Assembly: GCA_947589605.1 (NCBI GenBank)
Contig: CANQBR010000009.1
Coordinates: 1-51,373, forward strand
Direction of reading: 5' to 3'
Source of the DNA: an uncultured Phascolarctobacterium sp.
Lineage (GTDB): Bacteria > Bacillota > Negativicutes > Acidaminococcales > Acidaminococcaceae
DNA length: 51,373 nucleotides
The position numbers and the translations under genes were made by a program. This document shows positions 26,811 through 38,431 of this stretch, piece by piece. The notes beneath the pieces are model-generated. The model saw nothing but the letters and a program-made list of their open reading frames with translations, was not told the DNA's origin and made no database searches. How positions within the stretch are numbered: position 1 is the first letter of the stretch; every line of letters begins with the position of its first letter.

Positions 26811-26840
26811 TTGATTTTGCGATGGCGGCGATGATATAAT
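26811..26840 (+). promoter_or_regulatory. Promoter of thiW operon
   Basis: TTGATT (26811-26816), 18-bp spacer, perfect TATAAT (26835-26840). Transcription should start near 26847, giving a leader of about 58 nt, too short for a TPP riboswitch; no THI-box sequence is present. Confidence 0.72.
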
Positions 26841-26904
26841 GAAGTTGCGTTTTCGTCTGTTGCTTTACGCAAAATTTTTCGACGCAAAGAGTGAGGCTCA
26901 AGCG

Positions 26905-27393
26905 ATGGAACTTCGCAAATTTACTTCGGCGGCGCTTTTGGTGGCCATAGGCACCTTGAGCGCTCATCTCGTCTACATCCCCGTGGGCGTCTCCAAGTGC
27001 TTCCCCGTGCAGCACGCCATCAACGTCATGGCCGGCGTTTTGCTGGGGCCCGATTACGCTTTGGCGGTGGCCTTCGTCATCTCCTGCCTGCGCAATATTT
27101 TGGGCACCGGCTCGCTTTTGGCCTTCCCCGGCAGCATGTGCGGCGCTCTTTTGGCCGGCTTGGCCTATGCCCGTTGGCAAAATCTGTCTTTAGCCATGAG
27201 CGGAGAGATCTTCGGCACCGGCATCGTGGGCGGCCTGCTGGCTTGGGCAGTGGCCTATTTTCTGCTGGGCAGTCAGGCGGCGGCGTGGACCTTCGTGCCT
27301 CCCTTTTTGCTGAGCACCGCGGGGGGCAGCCTCATCGCCGGTCTCGTGCTGAAGAGCGGCGTGCTGCAGCAGCGTTTGAAAGAAGGAAAATAA
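26905..27393 (+). CDS. thiW: ECF transporter S component ThiW
   Basis: Membrane S component for thiamine precursor (hydroxyethylthiazole) uptake. About 162 residues with five to six helices; GVSKCFPVQHAINVMAGVLLG and LRNILGTGSLLAFPGSM patterns (shown in part: FPVQHAINVMAG, GTGSLLAFPGSM) are the ThiW signature. A longer in-frame ATG at 26839 overlaps the -10 box, so the start is at 26905 (MELRKFTS). No ATPase or EcfT gene adjoins it; it may use the ECF module at 3.7-6.6 kb or another one. First of three tightly spaced genes ending with an ArsR repressor. Confidence 0.93.
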   Translation: MELRKFTSAALLVAIGTLSAHLVYIPVGVSKCFPVQHAINVMAGVLLGPDYALAVAFVISCLRNILGTGSLLAFPGSMCGALLAGLAYARWQNLSLAMSGEIFGTGIVGGLLAWAVAYFLLGSQAAAWTFVPPFLLSTAGGSLIAGLVLKSGVLQQRLKEGK

Positions 27394-27394
27394 A

Positions 27395-27688
27395 ATGGAT
27401 CTTGAGCGGGCTGTCAACTTGATGCTCTATGCCCTCAGCGGCTTTTTCTTCGGCATCTTCGCTGCCCGTTGGTGTGTTTACAGCGCCGCCAAGATCGCCG
27501 ATAAATGGCGGACGGAAGGGGTGACCGGCCTCTTTTCCTGTCTGCCCTTCTTTCTGCTTTTGTCGGTGGGCTTCTTCTTTTTCCCCATGTGGTTCGTCAC
27601 CAAGACCGAGTTAGGCAGCTTCGTTTACTATCTGGTGCTGATCTTTTTCTTCAACCGAGGCTACAGGGCCTTGAACAAAAACAGGTGA
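27395..27688 (+). CDS. Small membrane protein of unknown function
   Basis: 97 residues, three hydrophobic segments (about 8-30, 44-66, 70-88) with aromatic-rich FFFFPMWFVTK in the middle. Family not recognised. Begins one base after the thiW stop with GAAGGA as ribosome site, and ends 4 bp before the ArsR gene, so the three form one transcript. Could be an accessory of the transporter or unrelated. Confidence 0.8.
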   Translation: MDLERAVNLMLYALSGFFFGIFAARWCVYSAAKIADKWRTEGVTGLFSCLPFFLLLSVGFFFFPMWFVTKTELGSFVYYLVLIFFFNRGYRALNKNR

Positions 27689-28106: not shown

Positions 28107-29135
28107 TCAGCGGGCTTCCTTCCACTTGCGGATGACTTCGCTTTTATAGATGCTGGTCCACCCCAGATCGTCCACCGGCACCTGCACCTTGCCGATGAAT
28201 TCTTTGCGGCCCACGTTGTCGGGATAATTTTTCACATGCCAGAGGAAGTAGTAGCCGTTTTCCCTGAGCAGCTCCACGCTCTCGTCGCTCATCAAATAAT
28301 CCAAAAAAGCGCGGGCTCCCTCTTTGTTGCCGGCGTTGGCCAAAAGAGCCGCCCCGGTGAGCAGGTTGCGGTTGGCGTCTTTGATGATGGTGGCAAAAAG
28401 ATGGGGGTGCTTGCCCTCTAAGATCATCGCGTAAGAGAGGGGCACCACGGCCACCGTCTTTTCGCCGCTGTAGACCAGCCAGCCTGCCTCTGCCAGACCG
28501 GCGGTGAGCTGCGGCCTTTGGGCATTGAAGCGGGCGGCGTAGGCCAAAGCTTTGTCTTTGCCCCGCAGCTGCCAGATGCTGGTGAGCATGCTGTAGCTGG
28601 CGCCGCCGTGATCGTAATCGGGCACGGCGATCTCGTCTTGCAGTTTTTCATCCAGCAGTTCGTCCCAAACGGTGGGAGCGTAAAGGCCGAAGCGCCGCAA
28701 TTTTTCTTTGTTGCTGATCAGCCCGATGTAACCTAAATAGAGACTGGTCCAATGGCCGTCTTTGTTGCGCAAAGTGACGGGCACTTTATAGGCTTCCCGA
28801 GTGAGGTAGGGCTCCAGCGCCGCTTCTCTATGCGCTAAATAATATTCTTCCGCCGTGCCGCCCAGCCACACATCGAAGCGGCCGTTTTTCAAATAAGCCA
28901 AGCGCTCTTGAAAAGTGCCTGCCGGCAAATAGGCGACTTCCGCTCTCGCTTGCTGCCTTTGGACGAAGTCGCGGATCAAAAGGCCGGTGAGGTCTTCGCC
29001 CAGACTGCTGCAGACCCGCAGCACCTGCCGCTCCTCTCCCTCGCGGCTCGCGGCCTTCTCGCCGCAGCCGACAGCTGCTGCCGCCAGCAGGAGGAGCCCG
29101 ATGATCATCGCCGTTTTGCCTAACTTTTTGAACAT
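28107..29135 (-). CDS. ABC transporter substrate-binding lipoprotein, iron(III)/AfuA-like
   Basis: 342 residues. Signal peptide with lipobox AAAVGC (Cys at about 24). The fold pattern is of periplasmic binding proteins of the Fe3+/thiamine/polyamine class: FDVWLGGTAEEYY, VTLRNKDGHWTSLYLGYIGLISN (in part), TVWDELLDEKLQDEIAVPDY, and ENGYYFLWHVKN near the end. No permease or ATPase gene follows, so it is an orphan binding protein. The ligand is not certain. Ribosome site GGAGG. Confidence 0.88.
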   Translation of the reverse strand: MFKKLGKTAMIIGLLLLAAAAVGCGEKAASREGEERQVLRVCSSLGEDLTGLLIRDFVQRQQARAEVAYLPAGTFQERLAYLKNGRFDVWLGGTAEEYYLAHREAALEPYLTREAYKVPVTLRNKDGHWTSLYLGYIGLISNKEKLRRFGLYAPTVWDELLDEKLQDEIAVPDYDHGGASYSMLTSIWQLRGKDKALAYAARFNAQRPQLTAGLAEAGWLVYSGEKTVAVVPLSYAMILEGKHPHLFATIIKDANRNLLTGAALLANAGNKEGARAFLDYLMSDESVELLRENGYYFLWHVKNYPDNVGRKEFIGKVQVPVDDLGWTSIYKSEVIRKWKEAR

Positions 29136-29479
29136 GACCGCCGCCTCCCCCTATCGCTAACTAATTATACAACTTGCCGGCGAAAAATGCCACCGCCGGC
29201 TCTGTTAAAGAGACGGCTGCGCTCTGTGCGCCGAAAATTTTCTCCATGAGCCCCATGAGCCCCCTGCGCACCGAAAGAGCAACAGCGCCGCGGCCCTTCG
29301 GCTTTTGCAAAACGGCGCGACTTTTTTCAGCGCAGGCTTTTTCAGGTCATCTATCTTTTTTTGACAAGAGAAAAAGCAGCGTCGACTTTTGCAGATCATC
29401 CCGATCTTTTCGTCGAGCGAATGAAGAGCGCAGACTTTTGCAAATTTCACCGCCCCTTCCTCTCAAAGCCGCAGGCCTG
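29136..29479. other. Intergenic region with imperfect repeats, no supported gene
   Basis: About 400 bp separate the two divergent genes. The motif GACTTTTGCA occurs twice (in 29389-29400 and 29434-29446), within longer similar surroundings (GCGTCGACTTTTGCAGAT and GCGCAGACTTTTGCAAAT), and a looser version GCGCGACTTTTTTCAG lies at about 29318. A minus-strand frame of 81 codons here repeats CKSRR but has no ribosome site. See findings. Confidence 0.4.
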
Positions 29480-29488
29480 TGGTAAAAT
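29480..29488 (+). promoter_or_regulatory. Extended -10 promoter of the radical SAM gene
   Basis: TGG followed by TAAAAT (29483-29488), about 54 bp before the ATG; no clear -35, as is usual for extended -10 promoters. Confidence 0.45.
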
Positions 29489-29541
29489 AAAAATAAGCGC
29501 GACCCACGGCGCAACTTTTCTCGAAACGAGGAGGTCCTCTC

Positions 29542-30480
29542 ATGCCCTACTGTTATATCTGTCCCCATCGCTGCGGCATAGACCGCCCTTTGACTCTCGA
29601 AGATACTGCAGAAGGCCGCTGCTTCGGCAGCTGCGGCTGCGGCCTCGCCCCCATAGTGGCCCGGGCCGCCCTCCATCGCTGGGAAGAGCCCTGCATCAGC
29701 GGCACCCGCGGCAGCGGCGCCGTCTTCTTCGCCGGCTGCAACCTGCACTGCGTTTTCTGTCAAAATTTTTCTATCAGCAGCAAAAACGGCTGCGGCGACG
29801 GCTTCGGCATCGAGATCGATGTGCCCCGTCTGCGGCAGATCTACCGCGAATTGATCGAAGAAGGCGCCCACAACATCGATCTGGTGACTCCCACTCATTT
29901 CGCTCAGGCGGTGGCGGAAAGTTTGGACGAACCTTTGGGCGTGCCGGTGATCTATAACTGCGGCGGCTTCGAGACCTTGGACACTTTGGCTAAATTGCGG
30001 GGCAAGATCGACATCTATCTGCCCGACCTGAAGTGGTACGACGATGTGGCGGCCGTCAAATACAGCAACGCTCCTTCCTATTTCCGCGTGGCCACCGCCG
30101 CCATAAAAGCCATTTACGAACAAGTGGGGGCTTATAAAACGGATGAAGACGGTCTTTTGCAAAAAGGCGTGCTGATCCGCCATTTGGTGATGCCGGGCTT
30201 TATAGAAGACACGAAAAAGATCATCGACTGGGTGGCGCACACTTTCAAGCCCGGCCAAGTGCTCTTCAGCCTCATGCGTCAATATGTGCCCTGCGGCAGA
30301 GCGAAAGAGTATCCTGAGATCGACCGCACCCTGACTGACGAAGAATATCAAGAGGCAGAGGCTTATCTTTTGAACAGTTCCATCGAAGACGGTTTCGTGC
30401 AGGAAGAAGCAGCCTGCGCATCCGAGGACTTCATCCCCGCCTTCGACGGCACCGGCGTGCTGAAGAAAGCAGAGAGCTGA
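29542..30480 (+). CDS. PflA/PflX-like radical SAM protein
   Basis: 312 residues. An N-terminal Cys cluster (CYICPHRCGIDRP and CFGSCGCG, about 4-40) precedes the radical SAM cluster motif CNLHCVFCQN (about 71-80; CxxxCxxC). GGFETLDTL (GGE-like SAM site region), IDIYLPDLKWYD and VLIRHLVMPG are typical of the COG1313 PflX-like group. Such proteins resemble pyruvate formate-lyase activase but the substrate is unknown. Start is certain (GAGGAGG, 8-nt spacing). Single gene with promoter and terminator of its own. Confidence 0.93.
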   Translation: MPYCYICPHRCGIDRPLTLEDTAEGRCFGSCGCGLAPIVARAALHRWEEPCISGTRGSGAVFFAGCNLHCVFCQNFSISSKNGCGDGFGIEIDVPRLRQIYRELIEEGAHNIDLVTPTHFAQAVAESLDEPLGVPVIYNCGGFETLDTLAKLRGKIDIYLPDLKWYDDVAAVKYSNAPSYFRVATAAIKAIYEQVGAYKTDEDGLLQKGVLIRHLVMPGFIEDTKKIIDWVAHTFKPGQVLFSLMRQYVPCGRAKEYPEIDRTLTDEEYQEAEAYLLNSSIEDGFVQEEAACASEDFIPAFDGTGVLKKAES

Positions 30481-30550
30481 GAGGCGAAGAGCGCAGAACA
30501 AAACGAATATCGCTGAAGAAGCAGACGAAGAACAAAATAAAAAAGCAAAA

Positions 30551-30586
30551 GGGCCTCGGCGGGGGATCGGTCGTCGAGGTCCTTTT
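30551..30586. terminator. Terminator between convergent genes
   Basis: GGGCCTCG pairs with CGAGGTCC (one G-U) and is followed by TTTTC on plus and, on the minus strand, by TTTTGCTTTT. Confidence 0.7.
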
Positions 30587-30614
30587 CTTCTGAATTTTTT
30601 TGCGAGGCTCCCTT

Positions 30615-31430
30615 TTATTTCTTTTTGCTCTTTTGCTCTTCCGCCAAACGGGCGATGTCGCCCACGCCGTCTAAGACCAGCGAAGGACGATAGGCAAAAG
30701 TTTGGATCTCTGCCCGAGTGGTGACGCCGCTCAGCACCAGCACCGTGGTCATGCCGCTCTCTAAGCCCGAGATTACATCCGTGTCCATGCGGTCTCCTAT
30801 CATCACCGCTTCTGCGGAGTGACAATCTAAAAGTCTCAGCCCCGTGCGCATCATCAAAGGATTGGGCTTGCCGCAAAAATAGGCCTGCTTGCCGGTGGCC
30901 AGCTCTACGGGAGCGATCAAAGCCTTACAGCCGGGCATGATGCCGTTTTCCACCGGGCCCGACACGTCCGGGTTGGTGCCGATGAGCTTGGCTCCCGCCA
31001 GCACCAAGTTGGCCGCCTTGGTGAGGGTGTCCAAAGAATAGACTCTGCCCTCGCCGAAGACCACGTAATCGGGGTTCACGTCGTTCATGGTGAGGCCCGC
31101 ATCGTAAAGGGCATTCAAAAGCCCCGCCTCGCCGATGGCGTACACGGAGCAGACCGGCGCCTGTTCTTTGAGAAAAGCCGCCGTAGCCAAAGCGCTGGTA
31201 TAAAAATGTTCAACCGGCACATCCAGCCCCATGCGGTGCAATTTTTGCCGCAGGTCCATGGGAGTGTAGCCGCTGTTGTTGGTCAAAAAAAGATATTCTT
31301 TCTTTTCTTTTTGCAGCCAACGGACGAAGTCTTTGACACCGGGCAGCACCAAATTGCCGTGGTAGATGACGCCGTCCATATCGCACATGAAGCCCTGTTT
31401 CTTATTAAAGTCGATAGTATTTCCTTCCAT
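30615..31430 (-). CDS. HAD-IIA (NagD-type) sugar or nucleotide phosphatase
   Basis: About 271 residues. HAD motif I CDMDGVIYHGN, motif II LTNNSGYT, NagD-type cap with GTNPD, motif III Lys in CGKPNPLMM, motif IV MIGDRMDTDVISGLESGMTTVLVLSG (shown in part: IGDRMDTDV). Hydrolyses small phosphate esters; exact substrate unknown. The ATG at 31430 (MEGNTID) is more likely than the frame start at 31505, which is preceded by low-complexity sequence. Follows the exported lyase gene by 80 bp. Confidence 0.92.
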   Translation of the reverse strand: MEGNTIDFNKKQGFMCDMDGVIYHGNLVLPGVKDFVRWLQKEKKEYLFLTNNSGYTPMDLRQKLHRMGLDVPVEHFYTSALATAAFLKEQAPVCSVYAIGEAGLLNALYDAGLTMNDVNPDYVVFGEGRVYSLDTLTKAANLVLAGAKLIGTNPDVSGPVENGIMPGCKALIAPVELATGKQAYFCGKPNPLMMRTGLRLLDCHSAEAVMIGDRMDTDVISGLESGMTTVLVLSGVTTRAEIQTFAYRPSLVLDGVGDIARLAEEQKSKKK

Positions 31431-31510
31431 CTCTCGCTTCTCTCTTTCTTCCGCCGCCTGCCGTGCGCAGCCGGCGGTGTTTTTATTTTTGACGAACGGC
31501 CGCAAATATC

Positions 31511-33013
31511 TCAGCCGTTCAATAGACGTTCGAAGTCTTCGTTCAGCCGTTTTTCGGCGGCGCTCAGTTTGTTTTTTGCCTCAGCCTGCCACTTACGGTC
31601 CCTTGCGATCGCTTCTTTTTCTTTTTTCATCATCACATCGATCTCTTTAGGCTGAGGGCCTCCCTTCACTGCTCTGTGGCGGACGATGGCTGCAGGATCG
31701 AGAGCGTTGCGCCACTCTTCTTCGGTGAGAGGAAAAGTTTGAGGCAGACTGCTGTCTTCGCGAGCCAAACGAGCGTAAAGCTTCGCCGCTTCACTATAGG
31801 TGAAAGCGGAAGGAGGGATATTGTGATTGCGAGCGTAAGTCACGACTTCCGATGCGAAGTGATGGCCGGTGCGGAAGGGCACATCGTGTTTCAACATCAA
31901 AACATCGGCTATCTCCTGAGAGCAGGTCCAATCCAAATTCAATTCTTCCAGAGCACGCTCGGGCCTCACGTCTAAAACATGGAGGATGTGAGCGAAGTCG
32001 CTCAGCATTTTTGCGGTCTTCTCCGTTAAGGGATCGCCCCCCGCAAGACGGCCGTCGGCCATACCGGCCGGGATGTTGTGGCTGCGATAGGTTTCGGCCG
32101 CCGCCAGCCCCAGCAAGGTAGAGCAATCGGTGCGGCATTGATTCAAGATGCCCGGGTTGCGTTTTTGGGGCATGGCCGAAGACACATAGGTGTTGCCTCC
32201 TCCCTCTTGCAGCAGGATCCAAGGGCGGGGCTGAGCATATTGCTGCATGATCTCTTGGATGAAACTTGCGGTGTGGACGGCGATAGAGGCAACTATGCCT
32301 CCCAGTTCCAAGGGTGCTTCCATGGGATAGATCTGTCCGGCATCGTAGGTGTTATAGGCAAGGCCGTCAAAGCCCAAATAAGCCGCCATCTTGTCTCTGT
32401 CCAAAGGCCAGCCGGTGCCGTTCAAAACCGTGGCCCCCATGGGGGAACGGTTGAGCCGCACATAAAATTCTTTCAGACGCTCTTCATCGCGGCCGTAGGC
32501 TGCGGCATAAGCCAAAAGGTAATGAGCATAACTGTTGGGCTGAGCGGCCACGCCGTTCGTGTAATTGGGAAGCACCATATCGGGGTAACGCTCGGCCAAT
32601 TCTGCCAAAGACGAACGGACTTCGGCCAAAGCGTCCGCCAATTTCAAAGAAGCCTCTCTCTGCCGCACCAAGCTGCAGGTGGTGAGCATATCTTGGCTGG
32701 AGCGCCCGGCGTGGATACGGGTGATGTCCGCTCCCGCCGCTTGGATCAAAAGAGGCTCGAAGGTGATCACCAAGCCGGGCCGGGCTGCCCCGGGGGCCTC
32801 CCCCTCTTGCAGCACTTTTTGCAGCCCGGCGGCAAAAGTTTTCCCCTGTTCTTCGGAGAGCAGGCCCTGACGAGTGTTGATGACGATGCTGGCCTTATTG
32901 ATCTGTCCCAGCCAATAGAAATTGTCTTTCGCCTCTGCCTGAGCCGCAGAGCTGCCGGCACAGAGGCAGGCGAGAGCCAGGGGCGCTGCTTTTTTCATGA
33001 GAGATCTTTTCAT
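31511..33013 (-). CDS. Exported argininosuccinate-lyase-like enzyme (aspartase/fumarase superfamily)
   Basis: 500 residues. A Sec signal peptide (1-28; MKKAAPLALACLCAGSSAAQA, cleavage near AQAEA) precedes a full lyase fold. HAGRSSQD matches HTGRSRND of argininosuccinate lyase; SSAMPQKRNP is the superfamily flexible loop with the catalytic Ser; AQPNSYAHYLLAYAAAYG and LNRSPMGATVLNGTGWPLDR follow the ASL pattern. However, the ASL motif THLQ before AQP is here TNGV, so the conserved His is missing. An exported member of this normally cytosolic family with that change probably has a different substrate. The C-terminal 60 residues are charged and helical. AAGGAGAG precedes the ATG. Confidence 0.86.
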   Translation of the reverse strand: MKRSLMKKAAPLALACLCAGSSAAQAEAKDNFYWLGQINKASIVINTRQGLLSEEQGKTFAAGLQKVLQEGEAPGAARPGLVITFEPLLIQAAGADITRIHAGRSSQDMLTTCSLVRQREASLKLADALAEVRSSLAELAERYPDMVLPNYTNGVAAQPNSYAHYLLAYAAAYGRDEERLKEFYVRLNRSPMGATVLNGTGWPLDRDKMAAYLGFDGLAYNTYDAGQIYPMEAPLELGGIVASIAVHTASFIQEIMQQYAQPRPWILLQEGGGNTYVSSAMPQKRNPGILNQCRTDCSTLLGLAAAETYRSHNIPAGMADGRLAGGDPLTEKTAKMLSDFAHILHVLDVRPERALEELNLDWTCSQEIADVLMLKHDVPFRTGHHFASEVVTYARNHNIPPSAFTYSEAAKLYARLAREDSSLPQTFPLTEEEWRNALDPAAIVRHRAVKGGPQPKEIDVMMKKEKEAIARDRKWQAEAKNKLSAAEKRLNEDFERLLNG

Positions 33014-37225: not shown

Positions 37226-38431
37226 TCAAAGGGCCAACATCTGCGGCTCGCAGGCGGCCAATTTTTTCTGCCACTCGCTCTGATAAGGAGCGCCGCCCTG
37301 AGCGCAGTCTTCTTTGCCGCCGCCCCGGCCTCCCAAAGCTTCGTTGATGAGCTTCATATAGGCTCGGCAATCGGCGCCGCTGCCGCTGCCTCTCACCACC
37401 GTATAATTGAGCCGCTCTCCCGCCGCTACGGCGACGATGCTGACGGTGTCGGGCAAAAGGCCCAATTTCGGCAGCAAAAGTTTTCCTTCTTTGCCGTCGC
37501 CCCGGTCCAAACAGAGGGTGAGCAGTTTGCTGCCGTCGGCTTTGCTCTTCGCCTTCTCTAAAGCTTCCGCCAATTTGAGATCGAGGAACAGGGCAGCCGC
37601 CGCTTTGTTCTGTTCGTGCAAAGCGGCCATGTCTTTTTTCAATTTCCCCAAACGCTCCGGCACCTGCTCCGGCTTGCAGGCCAAGTCCTGAGCCGCCGCC
37701 AAAAGCTGAGCGTTCTTGCGGTCCGCATCCAACAGGGCCCGCTTGCCGCACAAAAATTCTACCCGGCAGCCTTCTTTGTGTTTTTCGGAGCGGATGACCT
37801 TCACGCTGCCCAGCATGCCGGTGAAGGGAGGATGGAGGCCGCAGCAGGTGCACATGTCCGCATCTTCTACGGCCACGATGCGCAAAATGCCGGTGAGCTT
37901 GCTGTTGAATTTTCTCATTTTATCTTTTAAGAGAGCGGCTTCCTTGCTGTCCATATAGCTGACGTGCACGGGCCTGTTCTCCCAGATGATCTCGTTGGTT
38001 AAAAGCTCCGCCCGCAATAATTCTTCGCTCGTCAGATTTTTATCCAGATCGATGGTGACGAAGTCTTCGTTCATGTGAAAGCCGATGTTGTTGGCCTGAA
38101 AAAGTTTGAAGCAGGCATAGCTCAAAAGATGCTCGCCCAAATGCTGCTGCATCCTATCCAGACGAACGGGCCAATCGACTTCTGCCTGTACTTCGCTGCC
38201 CACCGCAAGAGGCCGATCGCATTCGTGCAAGATCTGCTCTCCTTTTTCGAAAACATACGAGCAGACCGCGTCCCCTATCTTGCCTTTATCGCTGAGCTGC
38301 CCGCCCCCTTCGGGATAGAGCACCGTCTTATCCAATTCGATGAGGAATTTTTTGCCTTGGGCCGCGCAGGAGAGCACCGTGGCTTTGCAGCTGCGGAGCA
38401 GGGAATCGTTCTCGTACAATTTTTCCGTCAT
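37226..38431 (-). CDS. Alanyl-tRNA editing protein (AlaX-L with DHHA1 domain)
   Basis: 401 residues. The N-terminal editing domain shows EGGGQLSDKG, then the zinc motifs HLGEHLLS (variant of HxxxH) and CTCCGLHPPFTG (Cys and His). The C terminus (about 260-400) matches the DHHA1 domain with GGRGGGKEDCAQGGA (typical GGGGGGRPDxAQ). Trans-edits Ser- or Gly-mischarged tRNA-Ala in the cytosol. Start ATG, with GAGGGGTGG upstream. Its promoter is back to back with that of the HAD gene. Confidence 0.94.
   Translation of the reverse strand: MTEKLYENDSLLRSCKATVLSCAAQGKKFLIELDKTVLYPEGGGQLSDKGKIGDAVCSYVFEKGEQILHECDRPLAVGSEVQAEVDWPVRLDRMQQHLGEHLLSYACFKLFQANNIGFHMNEDFVTIDLDKNLTSEELLRAELLTNEIIWENRPVHVSYMDSKEAALLKDKMRKFNSKLTGILRIVAVEDADMCTCCGLHPPFTGMLGSVKVIRSEKHKEGCRVEFLCGKRALLDADRKNAQLLAAAQDLACKPEQVPERLGKLKKDMAALHEQNKAAAALFLDLKLAEALEKAKSKADGSKLLTLCLDRGDGKEGKLLLPKLGLLPDTVSIVAVAAGERLNYTVVRGSGSGADCRAYMKLINEALGGRGGGKEDCAQGGAPYQSEWQKKLAACEPQMLAL

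Follow-up and report, generated by a model that had tools for sequence, protein, structure and literature searches.

A predicted periplasmic relative of argininosuccinate lyase from Phascolarctobacterium with a replaced histidine network

The locus described here raises the question of why an uncultured Phascolarctobacterium sp. should carry an argininosuccinate-lyase-like protein that appears to be exported and that has lost a key histidine of its active site, and what such a protein would cleave. The gene lies in a window of 51,373 nucleotides (the whole stretch of DNA analysed), which is contig C9 of a 1.76-Mb genome in 60 contigs that is 89% complete. Positions 31511-33013 hold a single 500-aa open reading frame (ORF) on the minus strand with its ATG at 33013, and the plus-strand frame across the same positions is broken by stops. 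An earlier sequence-only reading had placed an enzyme at 31511-33013; these bounds match the ORF exactly, and the gene runs on the minus strand, from 33013 to 31511. The gene and its two parts are as follows:

31511-33013 (stop codon included), minus strand: whole gene, a 500-aa exported lyase of the aspartase/fumarase superfamily (ORF with Pfam, NCBIfam and genome searches)
32936-33013, minus strand: predicted signal peptide, residues 1-26, cleavage after AQA (rule-based prediction)
31514-32935, minus strand: mature enzyme, residues 27-500 (AlphaFold2 model, mean pLDDT 92.3)

Placement of the protein in an argininosuccinate-lyase-like family was borne out, given that Lyase_1 (PF00206; 89.1 bits against a cut-off of 27; 4.6e-25) and ASL_C2 (1.4e-9) both scored above their Pfam cut-offs, and the Ser-Ser loop of the superfamily (SSxxPxKxN) reads SSAMPQKRNP. 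The NCBIfam models for the argininosuccinate lyase ArgH (TIGR00838; 185.4-186.5 bits, cut-off 279.5) and the coenzyme M synthesis lyase XcbC (NF052535; 186.6 bits, cut-off 575) scored almost equally, each under its own cut-off.

The N-terminus (MKRSLMKKAAPLALACLCAGSSAAQA/EAK) combines a basic n-region and a hydrophobic core with an A-X-A site, consistent with the clear signal peptide claimed earlier. Using a simple home-made hydropathy and cleavage rule, not SignalP, and allowing any upstream start, we could read a signal peptide in 55 of the 63 distinct members of the family; with starts picked blind to the signal, from the ribosome-site score and the start codon alone, 49 of the 63 were positive, 13 negative, and one had no start. 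Among the eight negatives, L097 and L088 resemble signal peptides by eye and were missed by the rule, L112 is a truncated sequence, and the truly signal-less members are L064, L065, L071 and L073 (all from one Aphodousia genome) and L114. Orthologues had been proposed as a check, and apart from the four Aphodousia paralogues and this one distant relative they retain the signal; the predicted pattern is thus conserved in the lyase family. The four Aphodousia members also indicate that export is dispensable for the chemistry. Only two of 30 distant superfamily relatives, mainly ArgH-type, had a readable signal, and neither is an ArgH: L113 is a broken family member and L066 an exported, EDDS-lyase-like protein from Pandoraea. 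The cytosolic-type relatives at ~30% identity gave one positive in 18 (L121, via an upstream start). L066 itself (genome G066; 26% identical) appears to be a second, separate exported lyase; its place in the tree is with EDDS lyase (SH-aLRT 100), and it retains the histidine (YTHRK).

The Negativicutes are diderm, and since carriers of both phyla are diderm, the exported lyase would sit in the periplasm. Two other export routes were considered and set aside. By eye, the cysteines in the window signal peptide fit no standard lipobox pattern, and they are not conserved, which favours a signal-peptidase-I site over lipoprotein export. A twin-arginine (Tat) pattern could be read in a minority of members only and is absent from the window protein. 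Exported "argininosuccinate lyases" are already on record: three such proteins of Achromobacter xylosoxidans are described as carrying predicted Tat signals and as detected in the periplasmic fraction, in an account that notes cytosolic contamination and treats the three as arginine enzymes (PMC11533796). Likened by description only, these proteins resemble the lyase family of the window protein in their annotation and in the periplasmic location, predicted for the window protein, but differ in the predicted type of signal, which is Sec-like in the window protein.

The active site was read column by column in an alignment of 110 proteins (62 family members, 29 distant relatives, 18 C-group proteins and EDDS lyase), from which the truncated L112 and L115 and the frame-interrupted L113 were left out; the five signal-less members were tallied separately from the 57 exported ones. 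The relevant sites in the window protein, all placed by alignment, are as follows:

32690-32713, minus strand: HAGRSSQD, residues 101-108, standing for HxxRSRND of ArgH
32549-32560, minus strand: TNGV, residues 152-155, standing for THLQ, with N153 at the catalytic histidine
32153-32182, minus strand: Ser-Ser loop SSAMPQKRNP, residues 278-287, including the catalytic base serine
32141-32143, minus strand: N291, at the glutamate that pairs with the catalytic histidine (goose delta-crystallin E294; PMC2779060)
32054-32062, minus strand: M318-A319-D320, with M318 for the leaving-group-side tyrosine and D320 for the lysine partner (goose K323)

All 57 exported members carry S106, Q107, N153, G154, V155, R285, G288, M318 and D320, where the ArgH-type proteins have R, N, H, L/M, Q, K, D and Y (23/23 each) and K (22/23), respectively. 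Position 291 is asparagine in 53 of the exported members and isoleucine in the other four, against glutamate in 23/23 ArgH-type and 18/18 C-group proteins and in EDDS lyase. In goose delta-crystallin this glutamate is described as bonding the catalytic histidine and a lysine of other chains (PMC2779060); its assignment to column 291 is our own. Taken with D320 and N153, the change at 291 indicates that the entire His-Glu-Lys network is gone, beyond the histidine alone, a coordinated loss of the ArgH site: the THLQ histidine with Glu and Lys partners, as found in ArgH, is absent from the exported family. The sequence-only reading was thus right that THLQ had become TNGV with loss of the key histidine and that SSAMPQKRNP is kept, but not that the HAGRSSQD motif is conserved, given that RSRND occurs in 23/23 ArgH-type proteins and RSSQD in 57/57 exported members. 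The loop is intact, with T152, S278, S279, K284 and N286 invariant in all 57, as is H101. M318 occupies, by our mapping, the column of Tyr322 of Mycobacterium tuberculosis argininosuccinate lyase and Arg341 of the nitrosuccinate lyase CreD, both described as lying on the leaving-group side (PMC13411527). The most distant relative to group with the family, L114 (38% identity, no signal), reads THGV and SRQD and keeps the glutamate, which makes it look like an intermediate, with His and Glu present and GV and SRQD already there.

Could the protein nevertheless be a periplasmic argininosuccinate lyase that draws its acid from another residue? The overall fold is ArgH-like, TIGR00838 scores ~185 bits, H101 is invariant and might serve, and public records name several proteobacterial members "argininosuccinate lyase". 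Nonetheless, the His, Glu, Lys and Tyr partners are lost in 57/57 members, and the duck delta-2 crystallin with the same His-to-Asn change is deposited as "inactive mutant H162N" (PDB 1dcn). Furthermore, all 12 carriers in the family of the window species encode a separate, cytosolic ArgH scoring at least 618.8 bits on TIGR00838 (cut-off 279.5), against 185-210 bits for their exported lyases, so arginine synthesis would be independent of the exported lyase gene. We regard this explanation as highly improbable. The earlier proposal of a chemistry other than argininosuccinate cleavage is supported by N153, by the replaced Glu, Lys and Tyr partners and by the separate ArgH.

Comparing the window gene with its 96% identical counterpart in an uncultured Phascolarctobacterium, we counted 66.8 synonymous and 27.2 non-synonymous changes, for a dN/dS of 0.108 (0.102 for the mature part only); the gene is under purifying selection. 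Together with a signal kept across two phyla and absent in ArgH-type proteins, this value supports the earlier suggestion that the enzyme would act outside the cytoplasm. The invariant Ser-Ser loop and a dN/dS of ~0.11 further argue that the protein is very likely an active enzyme but not an argininosuccinate lyase, and a pseudogene or dead enzyme was rejected on the same two grounds. A related idea, that of a catalytically dead exported protein kept for a binding or structural role, could appeal to the lost histidine network and to delta-crystallin as the model of a former argininosuccinate lyase, but the invariance of the loop serines, T152, K284 and N286 in 57/57 members is hard to square with an absence of catalysis, and we hold it to be highly improbable.

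The predicted structure points to a different branch of the superfamily. Enzymes of the superfamily are characteristically homotetrameric, with three chains contributing to each active site; the mature protein was modelled as a monomer with AlphaFold2 (mean pLDDT 92.3, pTM 0.90), and in structure alignments of matches taken from among the first 1000 Foldseek chains listed, four entries of EDDS lyase from Chelativorans sp. BNC1 (PDB 6g3d-6g3i, 6rx8) ranked on top (Z 38.9-40.8 over 460 residues, rmsd 2.3-2.5), followed by delta-crystallins and argininosuccinate lyases (Z 32.3-36.0) and adenylosuccinate lyases (~29 and lower). Sequence searches gave the same order: the best solved match to the single sequence was EDDS lyase at 137 bits, then E. 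coli argininosuccinate lyase at 118 bits, and a profile of 14 members scored 187 and 159 bits, respectively. EDDS lyase was matched along almost all of the mature chain, through the C-terminal helix, whereas the argininosuccinate lyase matches stop earlier. With ArgH and the delta-crystallins, the exported lyase shares the fold (Z up to 36.0), the Ser loop and an ASL_C2 match above the Pfam cut-off, but it differs from them in the replaced His-Glu-Lys network, RSRND motif and leaving-group-side tyrosine and, unlike ArgH, it is predicted to be exported.

EDDS lyase, a C-N lyase, is therefore the nearest solved relative by both sequence and predicted fold, and it too lacks the THLQ histidine, reading YTQRK with a glutamine in its place. 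The two nevertheless share only 24% identity, the signal peptide is a feature of the exported lyase alone, and the partner glutamate of the histidine, retained in EDDS lyase, is Asn or Ile in the exported family. The residues of EDDS lyase near the substrate are R112, N113, Q159, N288, D290 and Y320 (PMC12363623); only N288 is kept (N286 here), while R112, N113, Q159, D290 and Y320 become S, Q, N, G and M. One EDDS lyase entry holds fumarate in an engineered D290M/Y320M variant, and the exported family naturally has G and M at these positions.

This relationship brings up chelator-type aminopolycarboxylates, which with succinated thiols are the leading named rival substrates. The exported enzyme would then split a chelator or metallophore derived from fumarate in the periplasm, leaving the metal and the amino acid to be taken up by an ABC transporter. 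Besides the kinship to EDDS lyase, two relatives (L048 and L051) lend this idea some weight: in both, the lyase start overlaps the stop of an upstream gene for an iron(III)/PLP-type solute-binding protein (TGATG, TAATG) in an ABC operon, and a homologous binding protein is encoded in the window. The neighbours of interest in the window are as follows:

30615-31505 (likely true start ATG 31430), minus strand: HAD-IIA family phosphatase ORF, possible operon partner (Pfam, NCBIfam)
28107-29135, minus strand: ABC solute-binding protein, 2.4 kb downstream of the lyase (Pfam)

The binding protein family also covers non-iron ligands, the transporter link is confined to one sub-clade and the window, and all five of the altered EDDS lyase residues above speak against such a substrate, so that we consider this explanation rather unlikely. 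A metal or chelator role based on scattered metal-transporter neighbours (e.g., L087, L088) was set aside as anecdotal. The phosphatase ORF, directly downstream on the same strand, is a neighbour in the window species pair only. Thirty proteobacterial loci displayed no convincingly recurrent neighbour family besides the lyase gene and overlapping shadow ORFs, and no consistent partner gene emerged across 28 loci, 10 plasmid records and 35 further stretches; the lyase thus behaves as a single-gene unit.

For the second rival, an exported C-S lyase yielding fumarate and a thiol from S-(2-succino) thiols (e.g., 2-succinocysteine and derivatives formed from fumarate and thiols), there is a precedent in the S-(2-succino) lyase 2SL, a lyase class I enzyme of yxe clusters that is described as acting preferentially on N-acetyl-2SC (PMC9706529). 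Compared by description only, 2SL resembles the exported lyase as proposed here in that the adduct which it splits to yield fumarate is not argininosuccinate, and departure of a thiolate would need less help from a general acid, consistent with the lost histidine. Against this, we found no recurrent thiol-related neighbour and noticed no yxe cluster in the neighbourhoods examined, and the known enzyme, as described, favours an N-acetylated substrate (PMC9706529). We consider a C-S lyase unlikely, slightly more so than a chelator lyase. Nitrosuccinate lyase was also considered, given that CreD is described as lacking the leaving-group histidine (Leu170) and as belonging to the enzymes with the SSxMPxKRNP loop (PMC13411527), both of which the exported lyase shares. 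It was rejected, as CreD Arg341 has no counterpart (M318 here, mapped through Tyr322 of the M. tuberculosis enzyme) and NF052556 scores only 26 bits against a cut-off of 650.

The explanation that we favour, and think probable, is a periplasmic, His-independent beta-elimination C-X lyase of the EDDS lyase branch, which releases fumarate from an N-, S- or O-succinyl compound. A loop serine (S278/S279) would take the C-beta proton of the succinyl compound, the aci-carboxylate intermediate would be held by T152, K284 and N286, and the amine, thiol or similar group, probably meeting a neutral pocket of M318, G288 and S106, would depart unaided by the usual histidine and leave fumarate, which the cell would import and fumarase would convert to malate. 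The superfamily tolerates loss of the histidine, as EDDS lyase (Gln) and CreD (Leu; PMC13411527) demonstrate; since the invariant H101 might donate a proton, we infer His independence rather than observe it. Fumarate as the product can be fairly inferred, although the N-to-Q change at 107, within the carboxylate-binding motif, counts against it and could mean a different product.

Several context clues, each from one or two lineages, fit fumarate as the product. Two class I fumarase hits were obtained in the window genome (G000), which, at 89% completeness, gave no SdhA/FrdA-type hit; a paper on P. faecium likewise reports no fumarate reductase (PMC7568257). Genes for malic enzyme and class I fumarase lie divergent from the lyase in one genome (L166/L033), and the signal-less paralogue in L160 (Aphodousia) has a DcuC-type carrier and a porin beside it, as well as a LysR regulator, which was identified through a homologue scanned in L056. 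In the earliest-branching Negativicutes carrier (L163:6912-12441), sucC-sucD (succinyl-CoA synthetase), the exported lyase and adenine deaminase follow on one strand. In view of these neighbours, succinyl-adenine type compounds are possible substrates.

The family is sharply bounded: carriers have matches at 50% identity or more, and other matches fall to ~30%. Close homologues (E <= 1e-190) occur in 12 of 37 genomes of the window species' own family and in none of 24 others of the same order or class, and among 299 genomes drawn from the phylum the window genome alone matched at E <= 1e-60. The genome collection yielded 28 confirmed loci, which belong to Phascolarctobacterium, Succiniclasticum, Dialister, other Negativicutes, Pandoraea and Candidatus Aphodousia. 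Within the family of one Pandoraea genome (the Burkholderiaceae group), 27 of 249 genomes matched at 50-53% identity, with three further matches weaker, broken or partial. Several members are plasmid-borne: among the best 40 of 271 plasmid records, 14 stood at 49.5-53% identity and none of the others exceeded 30.3%. Named carriers include Cupriavidus metallidurans CH34, Dialister succinatiphilus and Succiniclasticum ruminis. In a tree of 61 rows (L073 omitted), the Negativicutes members formed one clade (bootstrap 100, SH-aLRT 99). In a quick tree, Dialister was nested inside this clade, which points to transfer of the gene between families, and the 57 exported rows formed one group with a support of only 48. 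The deep branching of EDDS lyase, the C group and the exported family is weakly supported.

As a tentative extension of the favoured reading, the family may be an extracytoplasmic branch of the superfamily that has its His/Glu/Lys acid network replaced and works without it, a single family shared by Proteobacteria and succinate-using gut Negativicutes, through which gut and soil dicarboxylate specialists would gain fumarate, together with the leaving group, from the succinyl adducts of others. In the open-licence literature, we found no characterised function for any exported member. The public annotation "argininosuccinate lyase" is very probably wrong for these proteins and would lead models of arginine metabolism astray. 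If the favoured reading is true, succinate-using gut bacteria would have in this periplasmic lyase, through its release of fumarate, a new way to harvest nutrients. Whether the superfamily needs protonation of the leaving group is described as an unresolved question (PMC13411527), for which the natural replacement of His, Glu and Lys offers a ready test.

A number of further observations were made along the way. The 1.8-Mb genome of one Candidatus Aphodousia (G063) holds 11 superfamily matches, and several of its cytosolic lyases (22-26% identical; L159:2901-16664, L160:8687-13979) adjoin DcuA/DcuB C4-dicarboxylate carriers, one of them 12 bases downstream of the carrier; this arrangement suggests that several fumarate adducts are imported, cleaved and used for fumarate respiration. 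In the window, long ORFs overlap on opposite strands at 29542-30480 (plus) and 29347-30876 (minus); the former matches radical-SAM weakly and corresponds to an ORF of 312 aa in L031, and the latter, without matches, is probably a shadow ORF. A ThiW-type thiamine-precursor transporter component is encoded at 26839-27393 (plus), adjoined by a conserved 97-aa ORF without a Pfam match (27395-27688). Lastly, the 401-aa product of 37226-38431 (minus) has alanyl-tRNA editing (AlaX-like, tRNA_SAD) and DHHA1 matches, far under the alanyl-tRNA synthetase cut-offs, and reads as a stand-alone editing-type protein.
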